A stretch of DNA of 56,473 nucleotides from Bacteroidaceae bacterium. GTDB lineage: Bacteria; Bacteroidota; Bacteroidia; Bacteroidales; Bacteroidaceae. Below, piece after piece: positions 324 to 53,890 of this stretch. The number at the start of each line of letters is the position of its first letter. Position 1 is the stretch's first letter. The notes below the pieces were generated by a model that was not told where the DNA came from, ran no database searches, and saw only the letters and a list, made by a program, of their open reading frames with translations. A program made the translations under genes and the position numbers. The stretch is from assembly GCA_017535725.1 (NCBI GenBank), contig JAFXTO010000008.1, positions 1 to 56,473 of the forward strand. Reading direction: 5' to 3'.

Positions 324-573
324 TGTTGTTGTTTTTAAAAGGGTTAATAAATAATTTATTTAATTGGGTAATCGGGTAATCGGGTAATCGGGTAATCGGG
401 TAATCGGGTAATCGGGGGGCGTTTATTCGGGGGGCGTTTAATCGGATAATCGGACATTCTTTCAATTTTCCAATTTTTCAATGTTTCAACTTTTTTCGCG
501 GCCTTCGTTATCACGTTATTCCGACGATTTATCGGCCGCTTTCAACTCGTCAACTCGTCAACTCGTCAACTTT
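324..573. repeat. Gap with GGGTAATC array and composite repeat copy A
   Basis: No gene. 366-413 holds six exact copies of the octamer GGGTAATC. 498-539 is a short (42 bp) copy of the GCGGCC-ended element. Two bases later an array of TCAACTCG/TCAACTTG octamers starts (542-581) and runs into the end of the DUF5119 gene. The spacing of the TCAAC units is exactly 8 bp throughout. Confidence 0.85.
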
Positions 574-1836
574 TCAACTTGGAAACACGTCCCATTCTTC
601 GGTGATGAAATCTCCGATGTCGATGTCGAAGAGTCCGGTGGACGTGGGTTGGTCGGGTATGGGGATGTCATCGATGCGTATATTGATGACCACCTCTCCC
701 GTCTGTTCATCGATGCTGCTGGAGCTGGGGTGCTGCATGTCCTCGGTGACATCGTAGGCGAAGCCATAGCGCGTGCCGTTGTCCATGGTGACGTAGAGCA
801 TCAGTTGGTTCGTGAGGTCTGCGGGCAGAGCCGTGTTCTCTTCTGGCGAGTGGCCGAAGACGCGCAGGGTGCCGCGGATGCTGGAGGCATCGACCTTGTG
901 GAACGAGAAAATCTCGGCCACCTTGTAGTTGAGCGGACCATGCGCCGACGGGCGGTAGCACTCGGCCAGTCCGTCGAGGGTGGCGCTGATGCTGGCCACG
1001 CGGTCCAGGTTGGACACATTACGGATGAGGAAGGTATATTGGTAGGTGGCGGCCCACATCGGCATGGTCAGCGTCTGCTCGGTGTTGGGCAGTACGGGGT
1101 AGTCCTGCGCCGTGCTCACCCACACGCGCTCAGGCTCCCAAATGTATTTGAGGTCGTCGTCAAAGGGGATGGAGTCGGAGGGGGAGCGGTTGTCATCGCT
1201 GCGTGTGGTGCGCGTGCCGTCGCTGCGACATGCGCCGAAGCGGGTGAAGCTCTCGGCCTGTGCGCGGAAGGCGGTGATGAAACGTGATAGGTCGCGCGGC
1301 ACGCCGCAGACCTCGTAGTCGTCGTAGCAGGTGCCACGTGTCTGCGTGGTCTCGGTGTCGCTGTTGTAGGCCACGAACCAGTAGGTGCCGCCCCATAGTG
1401 TCACGTCGCCGCCATTCATGCCCGCCAGCGGGTAGGTCACTGGGCTGCGGCCACCCAGGAAGGTCACGAGGTGCATCTCCGAGGCCGTGGGGTTCTGCGT
1501 GGCGCTCCAATCGAAGACGACTTTCAGGCGGCCGTGGTTCTCGTCGGCGCTGTCGTGGGGGTGGTGGTAGCAGAGGTCTTTTTGGCAGGAAGTGAATAAT
1601 AAGAGGAGAAAGGCCTCACCCCCGACCCCTCTCCCGTGGGAGAGGGGTGAAGAAGCCTCACCCCCAGCCCCTCTCCAAATGGAGAGGGGAGTAGATAGAT
1701 GGAGGGGGCGCAGGAGGGGGCGCAGAAGGGGGAGGAGGAGGGAGAGGAGGAATGAAAAAAGAGAAATGAAAAATGAAAAATATAAGTTTGCTCTGTGGCC
1801 TCTGTGTTGACGCCGTATGGCGGCAATATTTCTCAT
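574..1836 (-). CDS. DUF5119-type lipoprotein of a fimbrial operon
   Basis: Protein of 420 residues. From about residue 85 it reads LLLLFTSCQKDLCYHHPHD, a lipobox Cys followed by the KDLCY-H motif usual at the mature start of DUF5119 proteins, then a body with the motif VFDWS. The start ATG overlaps the DUF3575 stop as ATGA, which supports coupled translation. The odd part is the front: before the lipobox lie a Phe-rich stretch read from ATGAAAA-type repeats and two copies of a GC-rich palindrome encoding LSIWRGAGGEA and LSHGRGVGGEA. The signal peptide is therefore much longer than normal and may not work. The stop TGA lies inside a GTTGAC-type repeat. Likely role: accessory or anchor protein of fimbriae, inferred from neighbours. 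Confidence 0.75.
   Translation of the reverse strand: MRNIAAIRRQHRGHRANLYFSFFISLFSFLLSLLLPLLRPLLRPLHLSTPLSIWRGAGGEASSPLSHGRGVGGEAFLLLLFTSCQKDLCYHHPHDSADENHGRLKVVFDWSATQNPTASEMHLVTFLGGRSPVTYPLAGMNGGDVTLWGGTYWFVAYNSDTETTQTRGTCYDDYEVCGVPRDLSRFITAFRAQAESFTRFGACRSDGTRTTRSDDNRSPSDSIPFDDDLKYIWEPERVWVSTAQDYPVLPNTEQTLTMPMWAATYQYTFLIRNVSNLDRVASISATLDGLAECYRPSAHGPLNYKVAEIFSFHKVDASSIRGTLRVFGHSPEENTALPADLTNQLMLYVTMDNGTRYGFAYDVTEDMQHPSSSSIDEQTGEVVINIRIDDIPIPDQPTSTGLFDIDIGDFITEEWDVFPS
1619..1700. repeat. Two GC-rich palindromic repeats inside the DUF5119 frame
   Basis: Two adjacent copies of a motif CTCACCCCC.ACCCC/CAGCCCC followed by CTCTCC...GGAGAGG lie in the signal-peptide region of the DUF5119 gene. 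Each can fold as a hairpin. They are read in frame on the minus strand as Gly/Arg/Glu-rich peptides. Related sequence occurs in ApbE, DUF1080, the B12 binding protein and receptor, and the MFS gene of this window. Confidence 0.7.
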
Positions 1837-3047
1837 TGGGCACCTCCTTTCTTATTAAAGAGGGACCAGCGGGGGTACCAGACGAGGGTGATTTCGGCCT
1901 TGGTGGGGATGAAGAGGTGGTGGCGCATGGTGCGCTGCCAGACGTAGCAGCCTGCATCGGGGATGTACTCCTTGTGGGTGCCGCCGAGGTAGCCCAGGCC
2001 GATGCTCATGTCGAGAGTGAAGCGCTCTTTCCACTTGGGGAACAGACGCAGGGCATAGCCGTAGCTGACGCCGACGCCGTAGTTGGCATCGCCCATCCAA
2101 CCCTCGCCGCCGAACTCGAAGTCGTAGCGGTAGAAACCTGCATAGAGGCCGAAGTGGTGGCCGGTGCGCACGTCGCAGGTCTGCGGCCGGAGCCAGTAGC
2201 GGCCTTCCACGTCGGTGGAGAAGAGACGCCAGTAGCGGTGGCGCATGTCATTCTTTGTCCAGATGTACATCACGTTGGCCGCCACGGACCAGTGCTCGTT
2301 GGCAAACCACTCCACGCCCACGTTCGGTACGACGACAAGGTCATAGAGGAGGTTGGTGCGCAGGGCGAGACGGGGACAGGAAAATGAAAAATGAGAAATG
2401 AAAAATGAAAAATCGGCTGCGCTGTCGAGGACGAGGGAGTCGGGGGTGGATGAAGAATGAGAAATGAAAGATGAAGAATTGGCGGTGCTGTCGAGGGCGA
2501 CGTTGTCGGGGGTGGATGAGAGATGAGAGATGAAAGATGAAGAATCGGCTGCGCTGTCGGGGGCGACGCTGTCGGGGGTGGATGAGAGATGAGAGATGAA
2601 AGATGAAGAATCGGCTGCGCTGTCGGGGGCGAGGGAGTCGGCAGGCTCTTCTGTTACCGGCAGGGCAAACAACAGGTCCACGCGCCGGGCGTACTTGGCG
2701 GCGTTGGCTTTGTCTATACCATTATTTATAATAGGGAAGATGCGTTTGCTGGCTATGCCCCTCCGCATCAGCGCTTTCTTCACGGTCAGCAGCCGCTTGG
2801 CCACTAATCGGCGGTTGTACCTCGCGGTGCCGACGTTGGAGGCATAGCCCTGCAGTGCCACCGCGCCCGTGTCCTCACGTAGCAGCCGTGCCACCGAATC
2901 CACCTTAACAGCCTCGCGCCTCAGTCCGTAGCGGTCGTGGGCAAAGAAGATACTCACAAGGGTATCGCTCATGACACTCTGGGCCGTGACTGTTGTCAGG
3001 CTAACGCCCCACAAAAGGGCGACGAGTATCATCATGAGCCGCTTCAT
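1833..3047 (-). CDS. OmpA-like plus DUF3575 outer-membrane protein
   Basis: Protein of 404 residues with a signal peptide (MKRLMMILVALLWGVSLTTVTAQ). Residues 30-130 resemble an OmpA C-terminal-like peptidoglycan-binding domain (FFAHDRYGLRREAVKVDSVARLL and LQGYASNVGTARYNRRLVAKR). About residues 145-220 form a repetitive Ser/Asp linker of four 22-residue units. The rest, from LALRTNLLYD, matches the DUF3575 barrel pattern (NVGVEWF, GRYWLRP, GHHFGLYAG). Known family context: DUF3575 genes lead fimbrillin operons in Bacteroidales. ATGA overlaps join it to both the AraC gene before and the DUF5119 gene after, so the three are probably translationally coupled. Inferred role: tether between cell wall and outer-membrane fimbrial machinery. 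Confidence 0.8.
   Translation of the reverse strand: MKRLMMILVALLWGVSLTTVTAQSVMSDTLVSIFFAHDRYGLRREAVKVDSVARLLREDTGAVALQGYASNVGTARYNRRLVAKRLLTVKKALMRRGIASKRIFPIINNGIDKANAAKYARRVDLLFALPVTEEPADSLAPDSAADSSSFISHLSSTPDSVAPDSAADSSSFISHLSSTPDNVALDSTANSSSFISHSSSTPDSLVLDSAADFSFFISHFSFSCPRLALRTNLLYDLVVVPNVGVEWFANEHWSVAANVMYIWTKNDMRHRYWRLFSTDVEGRYWLRPQTCDVRTGHHFGLYAGFYRYDFEFGGEGWMGDANYGVGVSYGYALRLFPKWKERFTLDMSIGLGYLGGTHKEYIPDAGCYVWQRTMRHHLFIPTKAEITLVWYPRWSLFNKKGGAQ
2381..2645. repeat. 66-bp tandem repeat coding for the DUF3575 protein linker
   Basis: About four units of 66 bp, the last degenerate, each containing ATGAGAGATGA-type A-rich sequence followed by GC-rich TCGGCTGCGCTGTCGGGGG. Read on the minus strand they give 22-residue units of the form PDS(V/L)APDSAADSSSFISHLSST. 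The A-rich part is the same kind of sequence as the ATGAAAA repeats found between genes elsewhere in the window. Confidence 0.85.
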
Positions 3048-3940: not shown

Positions 3941-3967
3941 AATGTCCGTTTAGTCTTAATTCGGGCG

Positions 3968-3997
3968 CAAAGGTAGCGACTTTTCGGTATTTATCAA
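3968..3997 (-). promoter_or_regulatory. Promoter of the AraC-fimbria operon
   Basis: Minus-strand TACCTTTG (3968-3975) with TTG (3995-3997) 19 nt upstream, matching the Bacteroidota primary sigma consensus TTTG N19-21 TAnnTTTG. Confidence 0.7.
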
Positions 3998-4092
3998 TAT
4001 CCGATTTTTCCCAAAATATGTCACGTACCTGTTTTTTCTATAAAAAAAGGTGGAAAAAACGACTATCAATTCATGTTTCCCACCCACAATAA

Positions 4093-4138
4093 ATGGATGC
4101 AACACGTAGACGCTGTGGCGTCCATGTGTTGCATCCAT
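4093..4138. terminator. Strong inverted repeat after the aldo/keto reductase gene
   Basis: Two 21-nt arms (4093-4113 and 4118-4138) pair with about two mismatches around a 4-nt loop TGTG. It lies 35 nt past the stop of the leftward reductase gene. There is no clean U-run, so it may be a terminator or an mRNA end-protecting hairpin. Confidence 0.5.
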
Positions 4139-4172
4139 ACAAATAGGCTGTGCAAAACTCGAATTGAATGAA

Positions 4173-5528: not shown

Positions 5529-5540
5529 AGCGTTGTCTGT

Positions 5541-5803
5541 TTTATTTGAGTTTTTGAGTTTTTGAGGGAGTTTATTAGTTTTTGAGTTTATGAGTTAGGG
5601 GGCGTTTTTTTCGGAATTACGGGATTTCGGAATTACGGGATTTCGGAATTACGGTAAAACGAATCAACGATTATACGATTATACGGTATAACGATATAAC
5701 GACATAACGGGATAACGAAATAACGGGATAACGAAATAACGGGATAACGAAATTTAAAGATTTAAAGATTTAAAGATTTGAGGATTGGGGGATTGGGGGA
5801 TTT
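5541..5803. repeat. Gap filled by octamer repeats
   Basis: The gap between the reductase and the Gfo/Idh gene holds two array types: TTTGAGTT units (about 5541-5604), then from 5612 about 24 consecutive octamers of the pattern CGNNATNN (CGGAATTA, CGGGATTT, CGATTATA, CGGGATAA, CGAAATAA) passing without loss of phase into AAAGATTT units. The array ends about 5 nt from the Gfo/Idh stop codon. No gene. Confidence 0.85.
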
Positions 5804-5808
5804 CAGGT

Positions 5809-6852: not shown

Positions 6853-6883
6853 AAATACATGCTTCGAATCGTAATTTCAGCGG

Positions 6884-6891
6884 CAAAAATA
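6884..6891 (-). promoter_or_regulatory. -7 box for the Gfo/Idh gene
   Basis: Minus-strand TATTTTTG, 32 nt before the start codon. No good -33 TTG at the usual distance. Confidence 0.45.
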
Positions 6892-6965
6892 GTCCTTTTT
6901 AGCTTAATTCCCGCTTCCTAACGACAAAAAAACAACTCTAAGAAGGAGAAAAGGATTGTTTTTTG

Positions 6966-6973: not shown

Positions 6974-6993
6974 CGCGCCAAAAAAGTACTTCT

Positions 6994-7958: not shown

Positions 7959-7964
7959 TATATA

Positions 7965-24675: not shown

Positions 24676-24835
24676 GTTGACAAGTTGACGAGTTGACAAG
24701 TTGACGAGTTGACGAGTTGACAAGTTGATGAGTTGACGAGTTGACAAGTTGACGAGTTGACAAGTTGACAAGTTGACAAGTTGACAAGTTGACAAGTTGA
24801 CAAGTTGACGAGTTGACAAGTTGACGAGTTGAAAA
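24676..24835. repeat. Array of 20 octamers GTTGACRA
   Basis: Twenty consecutive 8-bp units from 24676 to 24835 with no phase error: mostly GTTGACAA or GTTGACGA, one GTTGATGA and a last GTTGAAAA. Because 8 and 3 share no factor, TGA falls in every reading frame every 24 nt in this orientation. The array fills the space between fabG and the RluA-type gene. Confidence 0.95.
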
Positions 24836-40039: not shown

Positions 40040-40285
40040 TTGAAAAATTGAAATATTGAAATATTGAAATATTGAAAGCGGCCGATAAATCGTCGGAATA
40101 ACGTGATAACGGAATAACGTGATAACGAAGGCCGCGGAATGATGAAAAATTGAAAAATTGAAATATTGAAAATTAGAAATTAACGATTAAACGAATTATC
40201 GATTAAACGGGATAACGATTATTCGATTAAACGAGATAACGACTTGATGATTAATTTTTTCATTCTTTCATTCTTTCATTTTTTC
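40040..40285. repeat. Composite repeat copy B with octamer arrays
   Basis: ATTGAAAT octamers (40040-40077), the 58-bp GCGGCC-ended element in reverse orientation (40078-40135), more ATTGAAAA octamers, then AACGATTA/TTCGATTA octamers, and finally ATTCTTTC octamers up to the FeoAB stop at 40291. No gene in this gap. Confidence 0.9.
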
Positions 40286-40290: not shown

Positions 40291-42900
40291 TCAAAAAATC
40301 TGTCCTATCTGTACGACTGCGGCGGAGACGAGCCAGGCGACGCAGGTGGTGTAGGTGGCGGAGAAGAGAGCCCAGCGCCAACTGCCGGTCTCGTTCTTGA
40401 TGGCCACGATGGTAGCCAGACAGGGGAAGTAGAGCAGGATGAAGAGTAGGTAGGCGTAGGCGGTGAGGGGCGTGAGGCCGTCGGCTGCCATGAGCTGGTG
40501 CAGGCGGGTGAAGCGCTCTGCCCCCTCGGAGCTGTCGGTGGTCTGTGACATGCTCGTCAGCTCGCCGAAGCTGTCGTCGCCCGAGTAGAGGACACCCATG
40601 GTGGATGCCACAATTTCCTTGGCGCCGACGCCTGCGATGAGGCTCACGTCCAGCTTCCAGTTGAAGCCCTGCGGGGCAAACACGGGTTCGATGGCTTTGC
40701 CCATAAGGGCGAGGTAGGATGATTCCATCTCGTCAGCAGCTGAAATGTTGAAGAGTTGACAAGTTGACGAGTTGACAAGTTGACAAGTTGACGAGTTGAC
40801 AAGTTGACGAGTTGACAAGTTGACAAGTTGACAAGTTGACGAGTTGAAGAGTTGACAAGTTGACGAGTTGACGTGTTGACAAGTTGACGAGTTGACGAGT
40901 TGACAAGTTGACGAGTTGTCTTGTTGTGAGCTCGACGGGCCAAAATAACTCAGCGCCCACACGATGATGCTGGCGACGAGGATGATGCCACCCATCTTCT
41001 TCAGGTACTCCTTGCCCTTCTCCCATGTGTGGCGACCGATGGCCTTGGCCGTCGGCCAGCGGTATGGCGGCAGTTCCATGACGAAGGGTGTGTCCTCGCC
41101 GGGGACTACGAAGCGCGAGAAGAGGCGCGAGAGGACGACGGCCACGACGATGCCCATGACGTAGAGCGAGAGCATCACCCATGAGCGCAACTGCGCCGCA
41201 AAGAAGGTGCCAACCACCATGATATAGATGGGCAGGCGCGCGGAACAGGACATGAAGGGCAGGATCATCATCGTGATGATGCGCGATCGGCGACTCTCGA
41301 TGGTGCGTGTGGCCATCACGGCGGGCACGTTGCAGCCGAAGCCCATCACCAAGGGGATGAACGACTTGCCGTGCAGGCCCATGCGGTGCATCAGCTTGTC
41401 CATGATGAAGGCGGCGCGGCTCATGTAGCCCGAGTCCTCCATGAGCGAGATGAAGAAGTAGAGTATTAGGATCTGCGGCAGGAAGACAATCACGCTGCCC
41501 ACACCGCCGATGACGCCGTCCACGAGCATCGAGCGCAGCGGCCCCTCGGCCATCGAGCTGCCTATCCACTCGCCCAGCCATGCCACGCCCGCCTCAATCC
41601 AGTCCATCGGGTACTGGCCGAGGGTGAAGGTGGTCTGGAACATGATGAAGAGGATGAGGAAGAAAATGGGAAAGCCCAGGAAACGATGCGATAGCACATG
41701 GTCAATGAGGTGGGTCACGCGGTAGGTATCTTCCTTGTTGCCCGTCTGGAACTCCGCTTCGGCCAGGGCGCCGTGGATGAATCCGTACTTAGCGTCCATG
41801 ATGGCCGTTTCGGCGTCGGTGCCCGTTTCCTCCAGCACGCGCATAGCGGCGTAGTCGCGGGCGGCGAAGAGCTTCTTGCGGTCTGCCGTGTTGTGCTCTT
41901 CGGTCAGGTGCTGGCCGATGTATTTCGTGGCGTGGGTATCGTTCTCCAGCAGCTTGATGGCCAGGTAGCGGGTAGAATAGCGCTGTGCGATGTGCTCGTC
42001 GGCCTTCAGGTAGCGCTGGATGTGCTCGATGCCATTTTCAATCTCGTGACCGTAGTTGATATGCAGGTGGCGTGCCACTGCGTTCTGTCCCTCGTAGACG
42101 GAGATAACGGTGCGGAAAAGCTCGTCAACACCCCGGCCGCTCTTGAACGATGTAGGCACCATGGGCACCCCGACCAGCGTCTGTAGCACGTCGATATTCA
42201 CGTGGTCGCCGCGCCGCTCGAACTCGTCGAACATATTCAGCGCGCAGACCATGCGCACATTCAAGTCCACCAGTTGCGTGGTCAGGTAGAGGTTGCGCTC
42301 GAGGTTGGAGGCGTCGATGACATTGATGACTACATCGGGCATCTGCTCCGTAAGGTGTTGGCGCACATAGAGTTCTTCGGGAGAGTAGCAGGAGAGGGAG
42401 TAGGTGCCGGGCAAGTCGGTTAGGTTGAATGTGTAGTCCTCGAAGGTCGCCTTGGCCACCGTGGCATCCACGGTGACTCCCGAGTAGTTGCCCACGTGGG
42501 CGTGGGCTCCGCTGGCGAAGTTGAAGAGCGATGTCTTACCGCAGTTGGGGTTGCCCACGAGTGCCACGTTGATGGTGTGGCGGTGACGGCGTGCGGCAGC
42601 GTGCAGCTCCTCCTGGCCGATATGCTCCAGGGTCAGTGGCTCGCGCCCTTCGTTGGCCGTCTCCTTCCCTGCCTCGTCCGCGCCCACGACCTCAATCATC
42701 GCAGCCTCGTCGTGGCGCAGACTCACCTCGTAGCCCATGATGCGGTATTTCACGGGGTCTTGCAGCGGGGCGTTGAGCAATACCTCCACGTCCTTGCCTG
42801 CAATGAAACCCATCTCGATGATGCGCTTGCGGAAACCGCCGTGACCGCTCACCTTGACAATCACGCCGTGCTCACCTGTCTGTAAGTCTGAAAGTCTCAT
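40291..42900 (-). CDS. feoB: Fused FeoAB ferrous iron transporter with repeat-coded linker
   Basis: Start chosen at MRLSDLQTGEHG (869 residues), 26 nt after a TATTTTTG box. Residues 1-72 are a FeoA-type SH3 domain. The FeoB G domain follows: GNPNCGKTSLFN, the VTVD switch segment, DLPGTYSL and NMFDE. Then come the membrane part and Gate motifs (GFGCNVPAVMATRTIESRRSRIITMMILPFMSCSARLPIY, DVSLIAGVGAKEIVASTMGVLY). Between GGIILVASIIVWALSYFGP and SYLALMGKAIEPVF sits a linker of about 60 residues made of STCQLVNS-type octapeptides, read from 23 DNA octamers. Imports Fe(II) at the inner membrane. Confidence 0.93.
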   Translation of the reverse strand: MRLSDLQTGEHGVIVKVSGHGGFRKRIIEMGFIAGKDVEVLLNAPLQDPVKYRIMGYEVSLRHDEAAMIEVVGADEAGKETANEGREPLTLEHIGQEELHAAARRHRHTINVALVGNPNCGKTSLFNFASGAHAHVGNYSGVTVDATVAKATFEDYTFNLTDLPGTYSLSCYSPEELYVRQHLTEQMPDVVINVIDASNLERNLYLTTQLVDLNVRMVCALNMFDEFERRGDHVNIDVLQTLVGVPMVPTSFKSGRGVDELFRTVISVYEGQNAVARHLHINYGHEIENGIEHIQRYLKADEHIAQRYSTRYLAIKLLENDTHATKYIGQHLTEEHNTADRKKLFAARDYAAMRVLEETGTDAETAIMDAKYGFIHGALAEAEFQTGNKEDTYRVTHLIDHVLSHRFLGFPIFFLILFIMFQTTFTLGQYPMDWIEAGVAWLGEWIGSSMAEGPLRSMLVDGVIGGVGSVIVFLPQILILYFFISLMEDSGYMSRAAFIMDKLMHRMGLHGKSFIPLVMGFGCNVPAVMATRTIESRRSRIITMMILPFMSCSARLPIYIMVVGTFFAAQLRSWVMLSLYVMGIVVAVVLSRLFSRFVVPGEDTPFVMELPPYRWPTAKAIGRHTWEKGKEYLKKMGGIILVASIIVWALSYFGPSSSQQDNSSTCQLVNSSTCQHVNSSTCQLFNSSTCQLVNLSTRQLVNSSTCQLVNSSTCQLFNISAADEMESSYLALMGKAIEPVFAPQGFNWKLDVSLIAGVGAKEIVASTMGVLYSGDDSFGELTSMSQTTDSSEGAERFTRLHQLMAADGLTPLTAYAYLLFILLYFPCLATIVAIKNETGSWRWALFSATYTTCVAWLVSAAVVQIGQIF
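40747..40930. repeat. Array of 23 octamers inside feoB
   Basis: 184 bp of GTTGACAA/GTTGACGA units on the plus strand without a phase error, including GTTGAAGA, GTTGACGT and degraded ends GTTGTCTT and GTTGTGAG. The coding strand reads TCAACTTG, which has no stop codon in any frame. The insert is 61.3 codons long and lies in a hydrophilic loop of the transporter. Confidence 0.95.
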
Positions 42901-42925
42901 AACATTGTCGTTTATTTTTGCGGTG

Positions 42926-42933
42926 CAAAAATA
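42926..42933 (-). promoter_or_regulatory. -7 box of the FeoAB operon
   Basis: Minus-strand TATTTTTG followed by CACCGC, 26 nt before the ATG. No Fur-like palindrome was recognised. Confidence 0.5.
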
Positions 42934-43034
42934 CAAACTTGTCACCAAAAGCGCAAGTAATCACTCCCCAAGAAGCAGCACGAATACCTGCTTTTCACCA
43001 AAAAATCATCAAAAGTAGGTATGATTGTTCATTT

Positions 43035-45414: not shown

Positions 45415-46254
45415 CTAATTATTGTGTTGCAGCGGGCTTGCCTCCTGAATGAAACGGGTGGTGGCAATGATTTCGCCGTCGATGGCGTTGGGAGTGATGA
45501 CGGAAACGGTGTGCTGGCCGGTGATGAACTTGCCGGTGAGGGGATTGCGGATGTGACGGCGGTCGGGAGTAGCGTTGCCGGAGGTGGTGAGGCACTGGCC
45601 GGAAGGGATGTCAGAGGGGTTCGAGCCGAGGGAGAGGATGGAGCTGTTGCCGAGGCTGATGAGGGCGTCGGTGATGCCGTATGCAGGTAGGAGGGGGCGC
45701 AGGCGCTCGAGGGCGTAGCCTTTCAGAATGCCGGAGAGGTCGAGAATAATAGGCCTCACCCCCGTCTCCTCTCCTATAGGAGAGGGGAGTGGCTGAGCAT
45801 CGTTTGCCGGCTGAAATGCGAGTCTCCCCTGACGGGGAGAGATAGAGGGGGCTTCTGAGAGTCTTACCCTGTTGATGAGGCCGGGATAGAAGGCGGGGCT
45901 GTTGACGGTAATGTCGAAGAGGCCGCCGGTTTCGCGGTGAGCCTGAAGGCAGCGGGCGAGGAGCGCGTAGAGCTCAGGACTTAAATCAGATTCCAGTCCT
46001 TGATTGGCGGCCTGCACGGCTCTCGACAGTTCGCTGTCGGGGTCGAAACGGTTGCCCATCATTTCCACCGCGAGGAGTTCCTTGCGCACAGAAGCCTCCG
46101 CCGCCTCGAACTCCGATTCAGAGAGGGGCGCAAGCAGCAGGAGATCCACGCGGGTATGCAGCGCCTCGAACCAGGCGTAATAACGGTTCTGCGAGGGAGC
46201 AAGGTCTCCTTGGTCGGGGCGTTGCGGGCTGCCAGGGCGGAAGAGGTGGGGCAT
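45415..46254 (-). CDS. apbE: FAD:protein FMN transferase (ApbE)
   Basis: Start taken at MPHLFRPGSPQRP because the longer frame includes the terminator hairpin of the gene before it; about 279 residues. Motifs: MMGNRFDPDSELSRAVQA, LFDITVNSPAFYP, LDLSGILKGYALERL (in place of the common DLGGIAKGYA), LISLGNSSILSLG, and HIRNPLTGKF. It attaches FMN to Thr of target proteins, such as the FMN-binding protein at 38372. No clear signal peptide is left. About 35 residues (PSISPRQGRLAFQ...PLPSPIGEETGVRP) come from palindromic repeat DNA at 45750-45860. The changed GG to SG in the key motif and this insert make reduced activity possible. Confidence 0.82.
   Translation of the reverse strand: MPHLFRPGSPQRPDQGDLAPSQNRYYAWFEALHTRVDLLLLAPLSESEFEAAEASVRKELLAVEMMGNRFDPDSELSRAVQAANQGLESDLSPELYALLARCLQAHRETGGLFDITVNSPAFYPGLINRVRLSEAPSISPRQGRLAFQPANDAQPLPSPIGEETGVRPIILDLSGILKGYALERLRPLLPAYGITDALISLGNSSILSLGSNPSDIPSGQCLTTSGNATPDRRHIRNPLTGKFITGQHTVSVITPNAIDGEIIATTRFIQEASPLQHNN
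45752..45865. repeat. Palindromic repeat pair inside apbE
   Basis: CTCCTCTCCTATAGGAGAGG and a second hairpin TCTCCCC..GGGGAGA lie 50 bp apart, both read in frame by apbE. Same family as the hairpins at 1619-1700. Confidence 0.7.
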
Positions 46255-46305
46255 GGGGCGGAAAGGTGGAAGATGGGTGGAGGCGACGGAAGAGGGGAAA
46301 AAGAA

Positions 46306-46330
46306 GCCTCGCGGGAGAAAACCGCGAGGC
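46306..46330 (-). terminator. Terminator after the DUF1080 gene
   Basis: Minus-strand hairpin GCCTCGCGG/CCGCGAGGC with a 7-nt loop followed by TTCTTTTTC, 11 nt past the DUF1080 stop. Confidence 0.75.
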
Positions 46331-46341
46331 ATAGTGGTGGA

Positions 46342-47769
46342 TTACAGTTCCTTGATTTTGATATTCTTGAAATGAACTTCGTCGCCGTGATCCTGCAGGA
46401 GAATATAGCCTTCGGTAGCATTGCCGAAATTAGGCCAGTCTTTGTACTTGCTGTAGGCCACGAGGGCATTCCACTCCTGGTCGTCGCGGTTGTATTCGAG
46501 GAGTTTCACGCCGTTGAGCCAGTGCTCCACGTGCTTGTCCTGAACGATGATGAGTGCGGTGTTCCAGACGCCGATATGGAAGGGCTTCTGTTCGGGTGCA
46601 GGGATAAGGTCGTAGAGCGAGCCGAGGCGGCGGTTGCCCTTCACGCCCAGCTTGGCGTCGGGGTGTCGCTCGTCGTCGAGGATCTGGAACTCGCAACCGA
46701 TGGCCGAGCCTGCACCTTTATTCATCTCCGGATCCACGAAGTACTTGATGCCGCTGTTGGCGCCGTTGGTGATTTTGAAGTCTACGGACAGCATGAAGTT
46801 GCGGTAGGTGCGCGTGGTGACGATGTCGCCGCCATTGGTACTCTCGCCACCTCCAGCTTTGTGGACGATGAGTTCGCCGTTCTTGATGCTCCAACCCTTC
46901 TCGGGGAAGTGGTCGAGACGGGCGCCGCGCCAGCCGTCGGTCGTCTTGCCGTCCCAGAGCAGCTTCCATCCTTCCTTTATCTCGCTGTCGGTGAGGGCGT
47001 TGTCGATGGCATAAATCTGGGGAGCAGAGACATCAGGCGGATTCTGCGAAAAGGGGACATCGGGGGTGGAATAGAGGTAGGCGTCCTGCGTGCAGATGCG
47101 GATGTTGCGCCAGCTGATGGTCTTGCCTTCCTTGGAGGTGTCGTTGCCGATGGAGTGTACTTGCAGGGCGATGAAGCCGCTGGCATCCACCTCGTCGATG
47201 AGGTCGGCGCAGTTGATGCCGTTCACCCAGGTGCGGATGCGGCGGCCTACAGCCTCGATGCGAACTTGGTTCCACTCGTTGTTCTTGAAGGCGCGCTGGG
47301 CGGGTACGTTCTTGATAAGCGGGTAGAGCCATCCACGACGGGCCTCGTCATAGATGCCGCCCGTCCAGGCACGTGGGCTGGGGTCTATCTCAAATTGATA
47401 GCCGTGTACGCGACCGTTCTGGTAATCCTTCGAGCTGTGACTGCGTAGCTGCACGCCGGAGTTCAGGGCGTCGTCCACCAGAAACTCAAACTCCAGGATG
47501 AAGTCGCCGTACTCCTTCTTGGTGCAGAGGAAGGAGTTCTCGGTATTGGTCTTGGAGTAGCCGACGATGACCCCATTTTCCACTTTGTAGGTTGCCTTGC
47601 CGCCGCGCTGAGTCCAGCCGCTGAGGTTCTTGCCGTTGAAGAGGGGAGTCCAAGAAGACCCACCCCCATCCCTCCCTGTGAGGGAGGGAGCGGTTACCTG
47701 TGCAGACAGGGAGAAAAATTGGGTAACGGCGAGGCCTATAACTAATAAGAATTTATGTGTTGTTTTCAT
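46342..47769 (-). CDS. Two-domain DUF1080 (3-keto-glycoside hydrolase type) protein
   Basis: Start set at [24 protein letters not shown] (475 residues). Two copies of the DUF1080 sandwich: [18 protein letters not shown]...[12 protein letters not shown]...[21 protein letters not shown], and [16 protein letters not shown]...[12 protein letters not shown]...[22 protein letters not shown]. This family includes lyase-like hydrolases that act on 3-keto-disaccharides. The gene lies 121 nt after an exported Gfo/Idh protein, the usual oxidising partner. Just behind the signal peptide, [13 protein letters not shown] is read from a palindromic repeat (47661-47695). Likely periplasmic. Confidence 0.85.
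47661..47695. repeat. Palindromic repeat inside the DUF1080 gene
   Basis: CCCTCCCTGTGAGGGAGGG is a near-perfect palindrome, translated as part of [10 protein letters not shown] on the minus strand. Confidence 0.75.
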
Positions 47770-47815
47770 TTGTAATGTTGTTTTAATCAGTGAGTACAAT
47801 TTTTAGAAGGTGACT

Positions 47816-47890
47816 ACTCCCTCCCTCACAGGTGGTTCGAAGCCGGAACTATTAAGTGTTCCGGCTGGAGAAGCTGTGAGGGGTGGGTCT
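47816..47890. repeat. Large cruciform-type palindrome between genes
   Basis: Outer arms CCCTCACAG and CTGTGAGGGG enclose a perfect inner stem AGCCGGAAC/GTTCCGGCT (47841-47849, 47858-47866). It lies directly after the Gfo/Idh stop. The outer arms match the palindrome inside the DUF1080 gene. Confidence 0.75.
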
Positions 47891-49333
47891 TTATCCTTTA
47901 TAAAACTCTTCCCACCCCTTGCGTGGCGGCAGACCACCAGCCAAGAGGGCGTTGGCGAAGGCGTTGTTGGTGAACTGCTTGGTGCGTGGGTCGAAGAAGA
48001 GCTGGGTGTTCAGACGCTGGGCAATGACGCCGAGACAGAAGACCTGCGAGAGTACGCCATTGATTTCGAAGGGCGAGCGTGTCTTCTCGCGCCCCATGCA
48101 GGCAAGAAGGAAGTTCTGCTGATGGTTGCTGGGACTCTTCGGTACTTCGGGCAGTCGGCTCTGCATCTCGCGAGCCTTCTCTTCGGGGATGATACTGAGC
48201 GTACTGCCATGACTGCCGCCTTTGAAGATCAGGTCGCGGCTGTAGATAATCTTACCGGGGTTGAGCTGTGCGCGGGGCGTGTCGCCCTGATTGGTCGATG
48301 GAATATTCGCGTTGTACTCCGAGCCGCCATAACCCTCGGGCAGGGGCGGCAGGTTGTCGAGACCGTCGTACCAGGTGATATCCACGGGTGGCATATTGCC
48401 ACGGGCGCCGAAACGGAAGAGGATGGTGGAGCTGTAGGGGTAGAAGAAGTCGTTGTGCGCCTTCTGGTTGAGCAGCGTCACCTCGTAGGGTAGGCCGAGG
48501 TCCAGGAACTCATGGACGGTATCGAGGATATGCGCTCCCCAGTCGCCCAAGGCTCCCATACCGAAGTCGTACCACGAGCGCCACTCGCCCTGATGGTATT
48601 TGCTCGAATAATCGTGCCACTGCGAGGCGCCGAGCCAGGTGTCCCAGTCCATACCCTGCGGCAAGGTCTCTGCCTCGGGCAAGTGCTTGATATTTGGGTC
48701 GAAGCGGTGCCAGCGTCGGCTGTTGTTCATGTGAGCCGTGACGGCGGTGACATCCTTGATGATGCCGGCCTCCTGCCACGCCTTGAACTGGAAGTAGTTG
48801 GCTTCGGAGTGCCCTTGGTTGCCCACCTGGGTGGCCAGCTCGGGATGACGGCGTGCCATCTGCATGAGGAGTTCTGCCTCGAGGAAAGTGCGCACCATGG
48901 GTTTCTCCAGATAGATATGCTTACCGTGGGAGAGGGCCATCATGGCGATGGGGAAGTGGATGTGGTCGGGGACGGCAGCCACGACGGCCTCGAAGTCACC
49001 GGCGGCCTTCTCGAACAGCTCGCGGAAGTCGCGGTAGCGCTTGACGTTGGGGTACTGGCTGAGGACTTTCTGGCATTGCTTGCCGTCGAGGTCCACGTCA
49101 CAGAGGGCGGTGACTTCGACCATTCCTGTGCGCATGAAGTCGTCGAAGTCCTGTTCGCCGCGATTGCCGATGCCGATGAAGGCGACTTTCACCTTCTCCT
49201 TTTTGGCGTCAGCCGTTTCGCGCGATGTCATGAGGTGGGGCGTGGTGGCAGAGGCCAGAGTCTGCACACCGCCGAGGGCCAGACCGGCAACTCCAGCGCC
49301 CATGGTCTTGAGGAAGTTTCTGCGGGTTGTCAT
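47891..49333 (-). CDS. Tat-exported Gfo/Idh/MocA oxidoreductase
   Basis: Protein of 480 residues. Twin-arginine signal MTTRRNFLKTMGAGVAGLALGG, then VKVAFIGIGNRGEQDFDDFMRTGMVEVTALCDVD, VVAAVPDHIHFPIAMMALSHGKHIYLEKPMVRT with catalytic Lys, and GALGDWGAHILDTVHEF. Exported members of this family carry bound NAD and oxidise or reduce sugars in the periplasm. Together with the downstream DUF1080 gene it fits the 3-keto-sugar pathway of Bacteroidetes; this is inference from context. Confidence 0.88.
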   Translation of the reverse strand: MTTRRNFLKTMGAGVAGLALGGVQTLASATTPHLMTSRETADAKKEKVKVAFIGIGNRGEQDFDDFMRTGMVEVTALCDVDLDGKQCQKVLSQYPNVKRYRDFRELFEKAAGDFEAVVAAVPDHIHFPIAMMALSHGKHIYLEKPMVRTFLEAELLMQMARRHPELATQVGNQGHSEANYFQFKAWQEAGIIKDVTAVTAHMNNSRRWHRFDPNIKHLPEAETLPQGMDWDTWLGASQWHDYSSKYHQGEWRSWYDFGMGALGDWGAHILDTVHEFLDLGLPYEVTLLNQKAHNDFFYPYSSTILFRFGARGNMPPVDITWYDGLDNLPPLPEGYGGSEYNANIPSTNQGDTPRAQLNPGKIIYSRDLIFKGGSHGSTLSIIPEEKAREMQSRLPEVPKSPSNHQQNFLLACMGREKTRSPFEINGVLSQVFCLGVIAQRLNTQLFFDPRTKQFTNNAFANALLAGGLPPRKGWEEFYKG

Positions 49334-49339
49334 GAGGGT

Positions 49340-49436
49340 ATTTAAAGATTTTACGATTTAATTATTTAAAGATTTACGATTTAACGATTATTCGATTAAA
49401 CGATAAATCGAGAAAACAATAATTCGATTTAATGAT
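49340..49436. repeat. Octamer-type AT-rich array
   Basis: AAAGATTT, AACGATTA, TTCGATTA, AACGATAA and TTCGATTT units between the Gfo/Idh gene and the small membrane protein gene. Phase is kept except for one 7-mer. Confidence 0.75.
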
Positions 49437-49745
49437 TTATGGGTGTTGGTGTGAGCGGTACCCGCGCTGATGGCGGTGGATGATGTACTGATGGCGTTGC
49501 TTGCTTTTCGGCTTGCGGCCGATGAGGCAGAGGAAACCGTAGACGAGCAGCCGCAGGACGACCCATACGGCGTAGAGTACGAAGGTGGCTTCCAGAACAT
49601 AGAGCATCGATGTCCACAGCTCAGAGAACGGGGCGTCGTAGTGAATGATGGCGTAAACATTCAATCCTACGGCTATGAGGAAGCAAACGAGGAGCGACAG
49701 GCTCTCTTTGCGGATGCGGCGGGAGGGGAGGTAGAAGTAGGGCAT
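49437..49745 (-). CDS. Small membrane protein, unknown function
   Basis: Start set at MPYFYLPSRRIRKESLSLL (102 residues), because the Phe-rich part before it (FIFIFLYFFIFQI) comes from repeat sequence. Two helices: LSLLVCFLIAVGLNVYAII and MLYVLEATFVLYAVWVVLRLLVYGFLCLI, then a basic tail KPKSKQRHQYIIHRHQRGYRSHQH. I recall similar unnamed proteins in Bacteroidales but no function. It lies between two exported Gfo/Idh genes. Confidence 0.65.
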   Translation of the reverse strand: MPYFYLPSRRIRKESLSLLVCFLIAVGLNVYAIIHYDAPFSELWTSMLYVLEATFVLYAVWVVLRLLVYGFLCLIGRKPKSKQRHQYIIHRHQRGYRSHQHP

Positions 49746-49779
49746 TATTTGAAAAATGAAAAAATATAAAAATATAAAA

Positions 49780-49925
49780 ATGAACAACTCGTCAACTTGT
49801 CAACCTTTCAACTTTTCGCGGCCTCCGTTATTCCGTTATCACGTTATTTCGTTATTACGACGAATTATCGGCCGCTTTCAACTCGTCAACTCGTCAACTT
49901 GTCAACTCGTCAACTCGTCAACTTT
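49780..49925. repeat. Composite repeat copy C
   Basis: TCAAC octamers, the 58-bp element (49818-49875), TT, then six TCAACTCG/TCAACTTG octamers (49878-49925). The last three octamers are inside the upstream Gfo/Idh gene and encode its last residues and its TGA. Confidence 0.92.
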
Positions 49926-51188
49926 CGTCCCATAAGGCACATAGTCAATCTTCATCTCTTCGGGGAAGGGTAGGGGAGTGCCTTGCACGATGGCCTCGTG
50001 ACCGATGAGGCAAAGCTGGGTGGCATAGTAACCTTCTTCGGCAATGCGTGGCGGCTGTTTCTGGGTGCATACCGCTTCCACATAAGCTTCGGTGAGGAGT
50101 GAGGTGCCGTCGGTTTCGGGTGCTTTGCCGAGGATAAATTCACCTGGGTTGTTGCGAGCGACTTCGGGATCCCAGCTGCTGCCGGCGAAGGTATTGGAAC
50201 CCCAGATTTTGTCTTCCCACTCCATCAGCATCTGTACAAAGGCAGGAGCGGGGGCGGGGCCATAGTCCTCGAAGTAGAATTTGCCGCGCTCGGGTTCCAC
50301 GGTTCCTTTGTTCCCGAGAATCTGCTCCTCCAGACCATAGAACTTATTGCTGATGACGGAAGCGTAGGTCATCTGTCGCCCGTCGTTGAATTCATAGATA
50401 CAGTGGACGTTGTCATATACCTCGCGGCCGTCCTTCCAATGGGTGATGGCGCCGCTGCCCATGACGCGTGTTGGCAGTTTGCCTAGCGCCCACGTACCCA
50501 CCTGCAGCTGGTGGCAGGCCAGCTCCGTCATTAGCCCCTTGGACGACTCCTTGTAGAGGCGCCAGTTGATGAGACGTTCCAACTCGGGAGAAGGCACCTC
50601 ACGCCGCCAGTCGCCATTGCGGTTCCAGAAGGCGTGGATGGCGTTGATATCACCGAAAAGTCCTTGGTGAATCATCTCCATGACCTGAATATAGCGGGGG
50701 TCGAAGAGGCGCTGCTGGCCGGTGAAGAAGATACACCCCGTCTCGAGGTGACGGCGGTAGAGGGCGAGCGTCTCTTCCATCGTGTAGGCAATGGCCTTCT
50801 CGCAGTACACGTGTTTGCCTGCATCGAAGGCGTCCATCGCTATCTGGTAGTGTGTGTTCAGCGGGGTGGCGATGACTACTCCGTCGATGTCCTTGTCCGT
50901 CAGGAGCTGGCGATAGTCGTTGAAAGTCTTTGCCGATGGCACAATTTTCAGCGCCTCGTCTAACGAGGGCTGATAGATATCTGCCAAGGCCACGACCTCG
51001 CATTTAGGGTTCTCTGCCAGGAAACTGAGGAGGAACCGTCCACGAGAACCAGGTCCGATCATGCCCAACCGGCAGCGTTCCTTGGCGCTGTCCTCTACCG
51101 TGGCAAAGGTGGACAGCCACGGGCTGGTGGCGGCGAGGGTCGTGACCCCCATCAGCCCCAAGTTCTTCAGGAAATCTCTTCTGTCCAT
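49902..51188 (-). CDS. Exported Gfo/Idh/MocA oxidoreductase with repeat-coded end
   Basis: Protein of 428 residues. Signal MDRRDFLKNLGLMGVTTLAATSPWLS (twin-arginine type, RR-D-FLK). CRLGMIGPGSRGRFLLSFL, VVALADIY, VVIATPLNTHYQIAMDAFDAGKHVYCEKAIAYT (Lys of EKA in place of EKP), ELACHQLQVGTWALG. The end KVDELTS is read from octamers GTTGACGA and the stop TGA belongs to the repeat. Second dehydrogenase of the DUF1080 cluster; two dehydrogenases with one DUF1080 protein is the known layout of 3-keto-sugar loci. Confidence 0.86.
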   Translation of the reverse strand: MDRRDFLKNLGLMGVTTLAATSPWLSTFATVEDSAKERCRLGMIGPGSRGRFLLSFLAENPKCEVVALADIYQPSLDEALKIVPSAKTFNDYRQLLTDKDIDGVVIATPLNTHYQIAMDAFDAGKHVYCEKAIAYTMEETLALYRRHLETGCIFFTGQQRLFDPRYIQVMEMIHQGLFGDINAIHAFWNRNGDWRREVPSPELERLINWRLYKESSKGLMTELACHQLQVGTWALGKLPTRVMGSGAITHWKDGREVYDNVHCIYEFNDGRQMTYASVISNKFYGLEEQILGNKGTVEPERGKFYFEDYGPAPAPAFVQMLMEWEDKIWGSNTFAGSSWDPEVARNNPGEFILGKAPETDGTSLLTEAYVEAVCTQKQPPRIAEEGYYATQLCLIGHEAIVQGTPLPFPEEMKIDYVPYGTKVDELTS

Positions 51189-51214
51189 TATCTATTTAAT
51201 TTCCATTTTTTCAC

Positions 51215-51415
51215 TTGTCAACTCGTCAACTTGTCAACTCGTCAACTTGTCAACTCATTTACTTTTCAACTTTTCAATTTTTCAACTTTTCAACGTTTCA
51301 ACTTTCCGCGGCCTTCGTTATTCCGTTATCACGTTATTCCGTTATTACGACGATTTATCGGCCGCTTTCAACTCGTCAACTCGTCAGCTCGTCAACTTGT
51401 CAACTTTTCAACTTT
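51215..51415. repeat. Composite repeat copy D
   Basis: TCAACTTG octamers (from about 51217), TTTTCAAC octamers, the 58-bp element (51308-51365), TT, then six octamers (51368-51415) ending on the first base of the recG stop triplet. Fills the gap between recG and the Gfo/Idh gene. Confidence 0.92.
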
Positions 51416-53559
51416 CACGAAATGCTGCTCCAGTCGACGGCATTCTTATTCAGTTCTCGCAGATGTGACCACATTCTTGCATTCTCTGGCAAGGACTGAT
51501 TCGGGTCCTCGTCCAAGATTTGGTTGGCGGTGTCGCGGGCCAGCTGCACCAGCTGTCCGTCGCGAGCGAGGTTGGCAATGTGCAGGTCGAAAGCCACGCC
51601 GCTCTGCTGCGTTCCTTCGAGGTCGCCGGGACCGCGGAACTTCAGGTCGGCCTCAGCAATCTCGAAGCCATCGTTTGTCTCGCACATGATGTCGATGCGA
51701 CGTTTGGTGTCCTGCGAGAGCTCGTACTTCGTCACGAGGATGCAGTAGCTCTGGTCGGCGCCGCGACCCACCCGGCCGCGCAGTTGGTGCAGTTGTGCCA
51801 GTCCGAAGCGTTCGGCATTTTGAATCACCATCACTGAGGCATTCGGCACGTTCACGCCCACCTCGATAACAGTCGTGGCCACGAGAATCTTTATTTCTCC
51901 ATCCACGAAGCGCTCCATCACGGCATCTTTCTCTGCGGGCTTCATCTGGCCGTGAACCTTCGCGATTTGCAGGTCGGGAAAGACTTCACAGAGTTGTGCA
52001 AATCCGTTTTCGAGGTCTTGCATATCGCTCTTCTCGCTTTCTTTAATGAGCGGATAGACGACGTACACCTGTCGGCCTTTCTGCACTTCACCGCGGATCC
52101 CGCGGTAGAGTGCTTCAGGCTTCTCGGTCCAGAAGTGGCGTGTCTCAATGGGTTTACGGCCGGGAGGCAGCTCGTCGATGACGCTAACGTCGAGGTCGCC
52201 GTAAAGGGTCATGGCCAGGGTGCGGGGGATGGGCGTCGCTGTCATCACCAGCACGTGGGGCGGCACCTCGCTTTTTTTCCAAAGGCGGGCGCGCTGCGCT
52301 ACGCCGAAGCGGTGCTGCTCGTCGATGATAACCAGCCCTAAGCGTGAGAACTCTACCGTGTCTTCCAGCACGGCGTGAGTGCCGATGAGGATTTGCACTT
52401 CACCCGTGCGCGTACCTTCTATAATAGGATTGCGCCGCTTCTTGCCCTTGACGCTACCTGTCAGCAGTTCTACGCGAACAGGCATGTCTTTCAGGAACTC
52501 ACGGAATGTGGCAAGGTGCTGTTCCGCCAGAATTTCCGTGGGTGCCATTATGCAGGCCTGATAGCCGTTGCCTACGGCGATGAGCATCAGCAGTAGCGCC
52601 ACCAGTGTTTTGCCGCTGCCCACGTCGCCTTGCAGCAGACGGTTCATCTGCTTGCCGGATTTCATGTCGTTCCACATCTCGCGGATGACCCGTTTCTGGG
52701 CTCCCGTAAGTGGAAATGGAAGATAGTTGGAATAAAACGAGTTGAAGTAAGAACCTACCGTGGAGAAGACATAGCCGCGGACTTGCTGTTGCCGCAGTCG
52801 GGTGAAACGCAACAAGTTCAGCTGAATGAAGAACAATTCCTCAAATTTCTGACGGTAGGTGGCGCGGCGCAGGGCTTCGGCACTATCGGGGTAATGCAAG
52901 TCGTGCAGCGACTGTCCGAGGGACACAAGGGCGAGCCGATGGATGAGGCTCTGGGGAAGGGGTTCGGCGAGTTGGGTGTTTATATTGCAGCCTGTAGGAA
53001 ACACCTTGGCAATCAGCGTGCTGGTCAGGCGTTCCATGGCGCGGCTATTCAGTCCCACCTTTTTCATCTTGTCCGTCGTGTTGTAGTAGGGCTGCATCCC
53101 CATGGTTCCTAATTGCAAGGTCTCTGCATCATCTACATCTGGATGCGGAATATTGATTCGCCCATTGAAGACTCCTGGCCTACCGAAGACGATATATCGC
53201 TTGCCGATGAGGTAGTTCTTCTTGATCCACTTGAAGGCACCCGATTGGAACCAGACCAAATCTACAATACCGTGGCCATCGGTGAAGTGAGCCAACAGTC
53301 GCCGCTTGCGGCCCCGACCCTCCTCCTCGAAACTCAGGATTTCACCCAGCACCTGCACAAACGGCATATCTGCCGTCAACTCATGGACAAAGTAGAGACG
53401 CGTGCGGTCGATGTGCTTGTAAGGGAAATAGTACAACATATCGTGGAACGTCGATATGCCGAGTTCCGATTCCAGTATTTTAGCCCGTTGCGGACCGACG
53501 CCTGGCAAATAGGTTATAGGAGTCGTTAGGTCGATAGGCGAGGGGGTATCCGCCTGCAA
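51415..53559 (-). CDS. recG: ATP-dependent DNA helicase RecG
   Basis: Protein of about 714 residues. ITYLPGVGPQRAKILESEL opens the wedge domain. Helicase motifs: LLQGDVGSGKTLVALLL (I), MAPTEILAEQH (Ia), VIIDEQHRFG (II, DEQH), VMTATPIPRTLAMTLYGDLDVS (III), KILVATTVIEVGVNVPNA (V), QLRGRVGRG (VI). Rescues stalled replication forks. No ATG or GTG exists before the conserved region: TTG 53559 gives full length, and TTG at 53511 (LPGVGP) is an alternative. A TACTTTTG box overlaps the first TTG. Confidence 0.92.
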   Translation of the reverse strand: MQADTPSPIDLTTPITYLPGVGPQRAKILESELGISTFHDMLYYFPYKHIDRTRLYFVHELTADMPFVQVLGEILSFEEEGRGRKRRLLAHFTDGHGIVDLVWFQSGAFKWIKKNYLIGKRYIVFGRPGVFNGRINIPHPDVDDAETLQLGTMGMQPYYNTTDKMKKVGLNSRAMERLTSTLIAKVFPTGCNINTQLAEPLPQSLIHRLALVSLGQSLHDLHYPDSAEALRRATYRQKFEELFFIQLNLLRFTRLRQQQVRGYVFSTVGSYFNSFYSNYLPFPLTGAQKRVIREMWNDMKSGKQMNRLLQGDVGSGKTLVALLLMLIAVGNGYQACIMAPTEILAEQHLATFREFLKDMPVRVELLTGSVKGKKRRNPIIEGTRTGEVQILIGTHAVLEDTVEFSRLGLVIIDEQHRFGVAQRARLWKKSEVPPHVLVMTATPIPRTLAMTLYGDLDVSVIDELPPGRKPIETRHFWTEKPEALYRGIRGEVQKGRQVYVVYPLIKESEKSDMQDLENGFAQLCEVFPDLQIAKVHGQMKPAEKDAVMERFVDGEIKILVATTVIEVGVNVPNASVMVIQNAERFGLAQLHQLRGRVGRGADQSYCILVTKYELSQDTKRRIDIMCETNDGFEIAEADLKFRGPGDLEGTQQSGVAFDLHIANLARDGQLVQLARDTANQILDEDPNQSLPENARMWSHLRELNKNAVDWSSIS

Positions 53560-53564
53560 AAGTA
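53557..53564 (-). promoter_or_regulatory. -7-like box overlapping the recG start
   Basis: Minus-strand TACTTTTG whose last three bases are the TTG start triplet of the longest recG frame. If it is used, translation must begin further in. Confidence 0.4.
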
Positions 53565-53651
53565 CGATAAATAATTAAAGGTTCTGCGTTCAGCAGGACG
53601 TAATTAACGATGATTAACAGAAAGGGCGCCCGAAAGTATGGAAATAATGCT

Positions 53652-53659
53652 TACTTTTG
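53652..53659 (+). promoter_or_regulatory. -7 box upstream of the second GH29 gene
   Basis: TACTTTTG followed by CCCTGC. The next ATG (53682) opens ATGAAATAA and stops at once; the usable ATG is at 53818 behind the repeats. Confidence 0.45.
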
Positions 53660-53704
53660 CCCTGCAAACCTCCAGTTCGCGTATGAAATAACATCATTCA
53701 CCCT

Positions 53705-53890
53705 TTCCATATTTCAACTTTTCCATATTTCAACGTTTCCGCGGCCTTCGTTATTTCGTTATCACGTTATTCCGTTATTACGACGATTTATCGGCCGCTT
53801 CCCACCTTTCATTTTTCATGTCCATGTTTCATTCTTCATTCTTTTATCTTTCATTTTTCATTCTTTCATTTTTCATTTCCAATATTTCAT
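53705..53890. repeat. Composite repeat copy E and Phe-coding array
   Basis: ATTTCAAC/GTTTCC octamers, the 58-bp element (53741-53798), TT, then TTTCATT-type repeats (53808-53890) that run into the GH29 frame and encode its N-terminus. Confidence 0.88.

Follow-up and report, generated by a model that had tools for sequence, protein, structure and literature searches.

The stretch of DNA analyzed here (the window) comprises the 56,473 nucleotides of contig JAFXTO010000008.1 from a Bacteroidaceae bacterium (assembly GCA_017535725.1, the window genome, a 2.9-Mb draft of 72 contigs that is 76% complete). It carries a repeated element in which a core of direct octamer repeats lies between GC-rich ends, and we found all five copies at the coordinates, on the strands, and with the ends that a sequence-only reading of the window had reported. 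Copy 1 (498..539, plus strand) lies between the start of one minus-strand gene at 323 and the stop of another at 574. Copy 2 (40078..40135, minus strand) lies between the start of a GFO_IDH_MocA gene (39863) and the end of the FeoB gene (40291), and its orientation relative to the neighboring genes is opposite to that of the other four. Copies 3 (49818..49875), 4 (51308..51365), and 5 (53741..53798) are on the plus strand, the last of them between recG and an alpha-L-fucosidase gene. Gene calls came from our own codon-score script, and gene starts are approximate. Copy 1 is 42 bp long with two octamers in its core (506..521, plus strand), and the other four are 58 bp long with four octamers each (40094..40127, minus strand; 49826..49859, 51316..51349, and 53749..53782, plus strand), so the 16-bp difference in length stems from octamer number, as had been proposed. 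The four-octamer core, (CGTTATNN)4CG in copy 3, is the part that is shared across the genus.

The unit of the core is the hexamer CGTTAT repeated at a pitch of 8 bp, with the consensus CGTTATNN, or NNATAACG in gene sense; the two letters between hexamers (NN) vary. In 388 kb of the window genome, runs of at least three CGTTAT units occurred 11 times at a step of 8 and never at steps of 6, 7, 9, 10, 11, or 12, and when 12 letter-permuted hexamers were used as a control, eleven gave no run and one gave a single run. The runs at step 8 are not due to chance. Core lengths change in steps of 8 in the window, as the sequence-only reading implied, and cores of three, four, and five octamers occur elsewhere, but the core of the copy at C30:4846-4901 is 2 bp short; in 2 further copies of the 22 that we aligned, the right tail is 2 bp shorter. 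The element was thus correctly described as a multicopy unit with an octamer-stepped core and complementary ends, but the conservation of the core and its placing close to start codons had been missed.

Of the 139 genomes of the genus, 66, the window genome among them, have the core array (three exact units), and none has the reversed pattern that served as a control. The strict full element was present in only 3 of the 139, with 18 copies in the window genome and one each in the relatives G131 and G135, and these two single copies occupy the same place as the window-genome copy at C24:83181. When we searched G131 and G135 with a sequence-only model (R1, built from 22 copies), we obtained 7 and 8 matches, respectively, mostly to the core only. 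Outside the genus, the core array was found in 3 of 392 genomes of the same order and in none of the 5 that represent the family's other genera. G486 had 13 array matches, but the control matched there 5 times, and G249 had 5; the arrays of both are mostly runs of one or two unit types, and G349 had one mixed array only. We conclude that what the species share is the four-octamer core, and that it is nearly restricted to the genus. The top-scoring named relative by RecG was the Bacteroidales metagenome-assembled genome (MAG) RUI002, at 80% identity. The copy at C24:83181 and its counterparts (loci L256, L248, and L249) are identical over 58 bp in three species. Near flanks (20–80 bp to the left, 0–60 bp to the right) are 93–97% alike, and farther out the left flank (80–380 bp) falls to 76–84% while the right flank beyond 60 bp remains at 91–96%; because the far right flank is also so alike, a reading of this copy as a conserved island is weak.

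The arrays have a preferred strand and place relative to genes in the relatives. We scored arrays in co-directional spacers by whether ATAACG reads toward or away from the downstream start, with orthologous arrays counted more than once. In G069 the ratio was 22:0, with three palindromic arrays that match both strands excluded, and in ten other relatives it was 33:11 (p = 0.001), with a sense majority in 8 of the 10. In a third sample of 29 loci, from which arrays less than 45 bp from a locus end were excluded, the ratio was 26:4 (p = 6e-5), and the 27 arrays new to the sampling gave 23:2. The 33 sense arrays of the ten relatives lie at a median of 18 bp from the start codon and 13 bp from the preceding stop codon; among 90 sense arrays pooled, the distance from array end to start is at most 20 bp in 36 and at most 50 bp in 64. 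Profile searches placed arrays between groES and groEL, between trpD and trpC and again between trpC and trpF, between murG and murC, between dapF and the LL-diaminopimelate aminotransferase gene (dapL), and beside a TruB gene; TrpF and MurC were assigned as the best family, at scores under the curated cut-off. Other downstream genes, recognized by eye from their printed starts, we take to be dnaG, queA, and the like.

Four units is the most common array length. With a scan that requires at least three units and allows at most one mismatch per unit, four-unit arrays made up 27 of 38 in the window genome, 16 of 23 in G069, 42 of 55 in the ten other relatives, and 17 of 35 in the third sample (11 of 27 when arrays already counted are left out). 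Counting exact runs only, the window-genome sample held six of four units and one of three. We also compared orthologous sites. At four sites with four units on both sides (a comparison that leaves out one within-genome pair of 12), site-weighted differences amounted to 3.3 of 96 positions in the hexamers and 11.9 of 32 in NN, and the same type of comparison gave 29 of 180 for the start-side flanks and 41.5 of 172 for the other flanks. Part of the hexamer conservation is built in by the scan, which does not apply to the freedom of NN. Across the 538 units of 127 arrays, mismatches at the positions C, G, T, T, A, and T numbered 14, 7, 23, 19, 12, and 3. NN is not tuned for folding of the core, for which 51 perfect arrays gave a mean z of -0.02, and we dropped core folding as the purpose of these letters.

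The GC-rich ends are a less general feature. The ends had been suggested to fold a stem, and of all cells for the six end pairs in the alignment of 22 window-genome copies, 83% are paired. The complementarity of the ends was confirmed, but covariation in the window genome is at most marginal (36 of the 500 shuffles score at least as high, and one cell is changed on both sides) and RNAalifold predicted no common pair for these copies; in three copies the left arm has changed to CCCCCC or TCGCCC with the right arm still GGCCGC. In G069, the core is enclosed by arms of the types GGCGGCC/GGCCGCC, GGCCGCC/GGCGGCC, or GGGCGCC/GGCGCCC, and the arms covary: GCCGCC was paired with GCGGCC five times, GCGGCC with GGCCGC five times, and crossed combinations did not occur (Fisher p = 0.008, from 10 of 26 rows, the other 16 lacking one or both recognized arms or being of the third type). 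A looser test of mean stem length on the same 26 rows was not significant (55 of 200 shuffles reach it). G015 has similar arms in several copies, and 44 of 55 arrays in the ten other relatives have no GC arm on either side (a pattern-based count). As for terminal inverted repeats, the window genome has 6-bp ends, G069 has arms that covary, and most arrays of the ten relatives have none. The arms appear to be an addition to the shared core, and in at least one lineage (G069) they are probably real inverted repeats; we did not retain the stem as a common structure, since it is unsupported in the window genome, and kept it as a lineage feature on the strength of the G069 covariation. In folding tests, the ATAACG strand of three window copies gave z values of -3.1, -2.5, and -3.4, and the other strand gave -1.9, -1.5, and -1.9; when three further copies were folded on the CGTTAT strand, two were no better than shuffles and one had a z of -2.3.

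We compared three of the five window copies with their counterparts in relatives. The region 46000-55400 is syntenic in G135 (about 83–89% identity) and G131 (about 75–85%), and the spacers that hold copies 3, 4, and 5 lack the element in both. Because these copies are missing from the same spacers of the syntenic relatives, they are recent arrivals, gained after the split from the nearest relatives compared. In G135, the counterpart of the copy 3 spacer contains GTTTAAGG-type octamers (L351, 10118-10230), so the repeat type of a spacer changes between close species, and the counterpart of the copy 4 spacer contains five TTTCAANN octamers; no octamer array was visible in the G131 counterparts. 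At the site of copy 5 (53705-53900), about 190 bp of the window genome corresponds to about 37 bp in G135, and about 36 bp of target have been replaced. The repeat block there replaced signal-peptide codons of the fucosidase that are present in G135. Read from the old start, the frame is closed by a stop at codon 3; the open frame instead begins within the repeats (TTTCATT), which encode a hydrophobic stretch, MSMFHSSFFYLSFFILSFFISNISFLHQ, as a predicted new N terminus. Among the recG loci of 29 relatives, 28 show no period-8 stretch at our threshold and one (L150) shows one; some matches are partial, so a locus may not extend to both recG spacers. Direct repeats of at least 3 bp at the ends, as expected of target site duplication, were found in 4 of 22 copies; shuffled flanks would give 2.4, and none stands out.

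Five copies in one window had been taken to imply a very high genome load, and this did not hold. Strict patterns found 7 copies in the window genome, or 18 with a slightly looser pattern. Model R1 gave 73 matches at E ≤ 0.001, at least 39 of which span both ends (from ≤5 to ≥55), on 16 of the 72 contigs; R1 scored 150 of 977 first-look candidates, so the count is a lower bound. By contig, the end-to-end copies number seven on C30, six on C57, five each on the window contig (C8) and C62, three on C24, and one or two on the rest. The window is thus a local cluster, and the genome shows clustering rather than a uniformly high load. Nearby copies are alike, as seen in two five-octamer copies with identical cores on C24 and in tandem composite units on C30. 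Two other modules were seen among these repeats. A second dispersed module, CCGCTCGGCGCCTTGCGACGC..., occurs among TTTCAAC octamers around 55010 (inside the fucosidase frame), at C30:3560-5050, and in G018:C169; a third, CTCCCCCCTTTAGGGGGCCAGGGGGCT, precedes some elements at G000:C57:2500-7260, where its C run looks fused to the left arm of other elements. A search of window:51290-51385 against plasmid and phage collections, with the low-complexity filter on, gave no match, and we dropped a plasmid or phage origin.

The element is one of several periodic sequences in the window. We found 13 stretches of 8-bp periodic sequence, of several octamer types; 11 lie in or overlap spacers, and two are within genes (FeoB and the fucosidase). 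TTTCAA- or TCAAC-type octamers, which had been reported before and after most copies, flank four of the five on both sides, but copy 5 (53741) on the left only. The flanking arrays include TCAACTCG octamers after copy 1 (542..579), copy 3 (49878..49923), and copy 4 (51368..51413) and a TTTTCAAC/TCAACTTG array before copy 4 (51208..51305), all on the plus strand. An eight-unit CGTTATNN array without GC arms lies at 5686..5749 on the minus strand. Other octamer types in the window-genome sample lean toward gene sense without reaching significance (TTTCAA 10:5, TCAACT 8:2). About 21 octamers lie in frame within the FeoB gene (open reading frame 40291-42948, minus strand) at 40747-40918, in the stop-free orientation, and encode VNSSTCQL-type repeats, and at 24676-24832 a spacer between two genes that run in the same direction is filled with about twenty GTTGACRA octamers. 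At gathering score, Rfam matched only two tRNAs and an abiF RNA (RF03085, 36161-36197, minus strand, 43.7 bits) in the window; the element itself was unmatched.

Building on the observed anatomy, the near-restriction to one genus, the place and strand bias in relatives, and the recent gain at three sites, we favor, tentatively and with less than even confidence, the reading that the array is a genus-specific cis element that acts at the mRNA level and has been amplified in the window genome as an armed cassette. The element proper would be four CGTTAT hexamers 8 bp apart, (CGTTATNN)4CG, so that the mRNA would carry four AUAACG words. In most relatives sampled, this core lies just before the start codon of the second of two co-directional genes, in the short spacer that separates them, and it would be read in mRNA because it lies inside operons, close to start codons, and on one strand. 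An RNA-binding protein, or the ribosome itself in a phylum with few Shine-Dalgarno sequences, may recognize the spaced words and control translation of the gene that follows. The window genome has this core enclosed by GC-rich complementary ends and set in other octamer repeats (TTTCAANN, TCAACTYG). Such blocks have entered spacers, in either orientation, after this genome parted from its nearest relatives compared, and many window-genome copies may be dispersed passengers; the cassette would be a derivative that spreads with other octamer blocks, and a given copy may have no function. What we infer is the bound factor, the RNA level, the translational effect, and the copying mechanism. Several results weigh against this reading. 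The exact array is missing from 73 of the 139 genus genomes, and so it is not indispensable. In the window genome itself, the strand bias is not significant (19:12, p = 0.28), the contig sample counted per spacer gives a sense-to-antisense ratio of 2:5, and the median distance of sense copies to the start is larger (180 bp); G016 (0:5) and G015 (4:4) likewise show no sense majority. When only exact runs are counted in G069, four units (seven runs, both strands) are not clearly above three (six runs). Across 16 orthologous pairs at five sites, with any number of units, 11 agree (all with four) and 5 differ, and as the orthologous sites were found via arrays, the low divergence of the hexamers is partly a matter of ascertainment.

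The main alternative is that the arrays are a neutral or selfish family of short tandem repeats that grows by slippage, spreads by recombination or templated insertion, has no function, and survives mainly where it leaves genes unbroken. This is a possibility to be taken seriously, although we do not think it probable. It accounts well for the spread: window-genome spacers are made of many octamer types and differ strongly among syntenic relatives, insertion overwrote fucosidase codons, nearby copies resemble each other (the five-octamer pair on C24 and the composite units on C30), and unit number varies at two of the five orthologous sites. It does not explain the preferred unit number, the mixed NN, or the strand, since slippage should equalize NN and vary unit number widely, whereas NN is mixed and four is the mode, and a preference for one strand relative to genes is not predicted for spacers. 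We regard as distinctly unlikely a site that acts at the DNA level, at which a transcription regulator or nucleoid protein would bind four direct repeats at 8-bp spacing, as at the predicted global-regulator sites of Geobacter metallireducens. The anatomy (four direct octamers, each fixed at six positions and loose at two) and a copy number of up to dozens per genome would suit such a site, but 20 bp or less separates 36 of 90 sense arrays from a start codon, several of them inside operons, and a DNA site has no need of a strand bias. Direct repeats 8 bp apart also lie on different sides of the DNA helix.

Two further explanations seem to us very improbable. ATAACG contains TAA in gene sense, and three or more units at a step of 8 would stop every frame between genes; of the 90 sense arrays, 19 overlap the stop codon before them or are at most 2 bp from it, as a frame-independent stop signal might be. 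We disfavor a stop-codon array because the TAA positions are more variable than the other three (54 versus 24 mismatches). An RNA hairpin in which the GC ends pair, such as an intrinsic terminator or a palindrome of the repetitive extragenic palindromic (REP) kind, has as little to recommend it. In three window copies the ATAACG strand does fold better than its shuffled versions, and the arms covary in G069, but most arrays of the ten relatives lack GC arms, window-genome covariation is at most marginal, and two of three further copies fold no better than shuffles on the CGTTAT strand. Nor do the five window copies have a T run after their ends, which are followed by TTTCAA or TTCCC, and their loops are 30–46 nt, unlike those of an intrinsic terminator. 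A bolder version of the favored reading, an element acting in mRNA, is that the array is a new translational control code of a Shine-Dalgarno-poor lineage. A dedicated factor would read four AUAACG words at an 8-nt pitch between the cistrons of operon mRNAs, such as those of groESL and trp, with no constraint on the two intervening letters, and in one species the site would have become a self-spreading armed cassette; we hold this version to be rather unlikely.

Bacteroidota largely initiate translation without Shine-Dalgarno pairing, and work on such initiation reportedly exists for Flavobacterium and Prevotella (PMC6847099, PMC3155529). The array offers a concrete sequence with which to address how levels are set for genes inside Bacteroidota operons, made testable by its fixed pitch, its preferred unit number, its place before start codons in textbook operons, and its drifting spacer letters. 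The window genome also shows that repeats enter spacers, and even alter how a secreted-enzyme gene begins, over the evolutionary distance between close relatives.

Among known repeats, the short tandemly repeated repetitive (STRR) heptamers of cyanobacteria are intergenic arrays of short units in many copies, like the element described here, but they are heptamers and are not known to have a fixed unit number. Repeats of the REP type and miniature inverted-repeat transposable elements (MITEs) are likewise dispersed and intergenic, with inverted ends, which only part of the copies have here; the present element differs in that target duplications do not exceed those in shuffles, arms are mostly absent in the ten relatives, and the core is a direct repeat. 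A literature search for ATAACG or CGTTAT together with repeat and intergenic, which covered few subscription papers, found no paper on the element.

The portion available of a study of Porphyromonas proteins with an RNA recognition motif (RRM) does not give a binding sequence (PMC12119571). Closer are the TAACTGA direct repeats of marine Beggiatoaceae, Cyanobacteria, and some Bacteroidetes (MacGregor, 2015; PMC4679880), which are also mentioned in a paper on Thiomargarita (PMC4853749). These share with the arrays a short, tandem, direct, intergenic arrangement, mostly forward and just upstream of start codons; some overlap the end of the preceding gene, downstream functions show no pattern, TAAC is part of both units, and TAACTGA was proposed as a post-transcriptional site (PMC4679880). 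Forward placing of this type holds for our arrays in the relatives but is not significant in the window genome (19:12). The TAACTGA unit is a heptamer without free positions, with two units commonest and fewer cases as the number rises (PMC4679880), whereas the element here has period 8 and the unit NNATAACG, an octamer of six fixed and two free positions, with four units commonest, GC arms in some species, and a range of nearly one genus. The class 1 sites of Geobacter metallireducens, described from an alignment of 48 sequences in one genome, consist of four tandem octamers, the modal number here, and the same source reports a family of 49 elements with four tandem heptanucleotides (PMC2700814). 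According to the parts of that source available, their consensus is GTTGCTYN rather than CGTTATNN, the outer two octamers are poorly conserved, the sites are paired on opposite strands and sometimes lie beside insertion sequences, and placing before start codons, which marks the element here, is not described (PMC2700814). Of known systems, the TAACTGA repeats and the Geobacter four-octamer sites come closest to the element.

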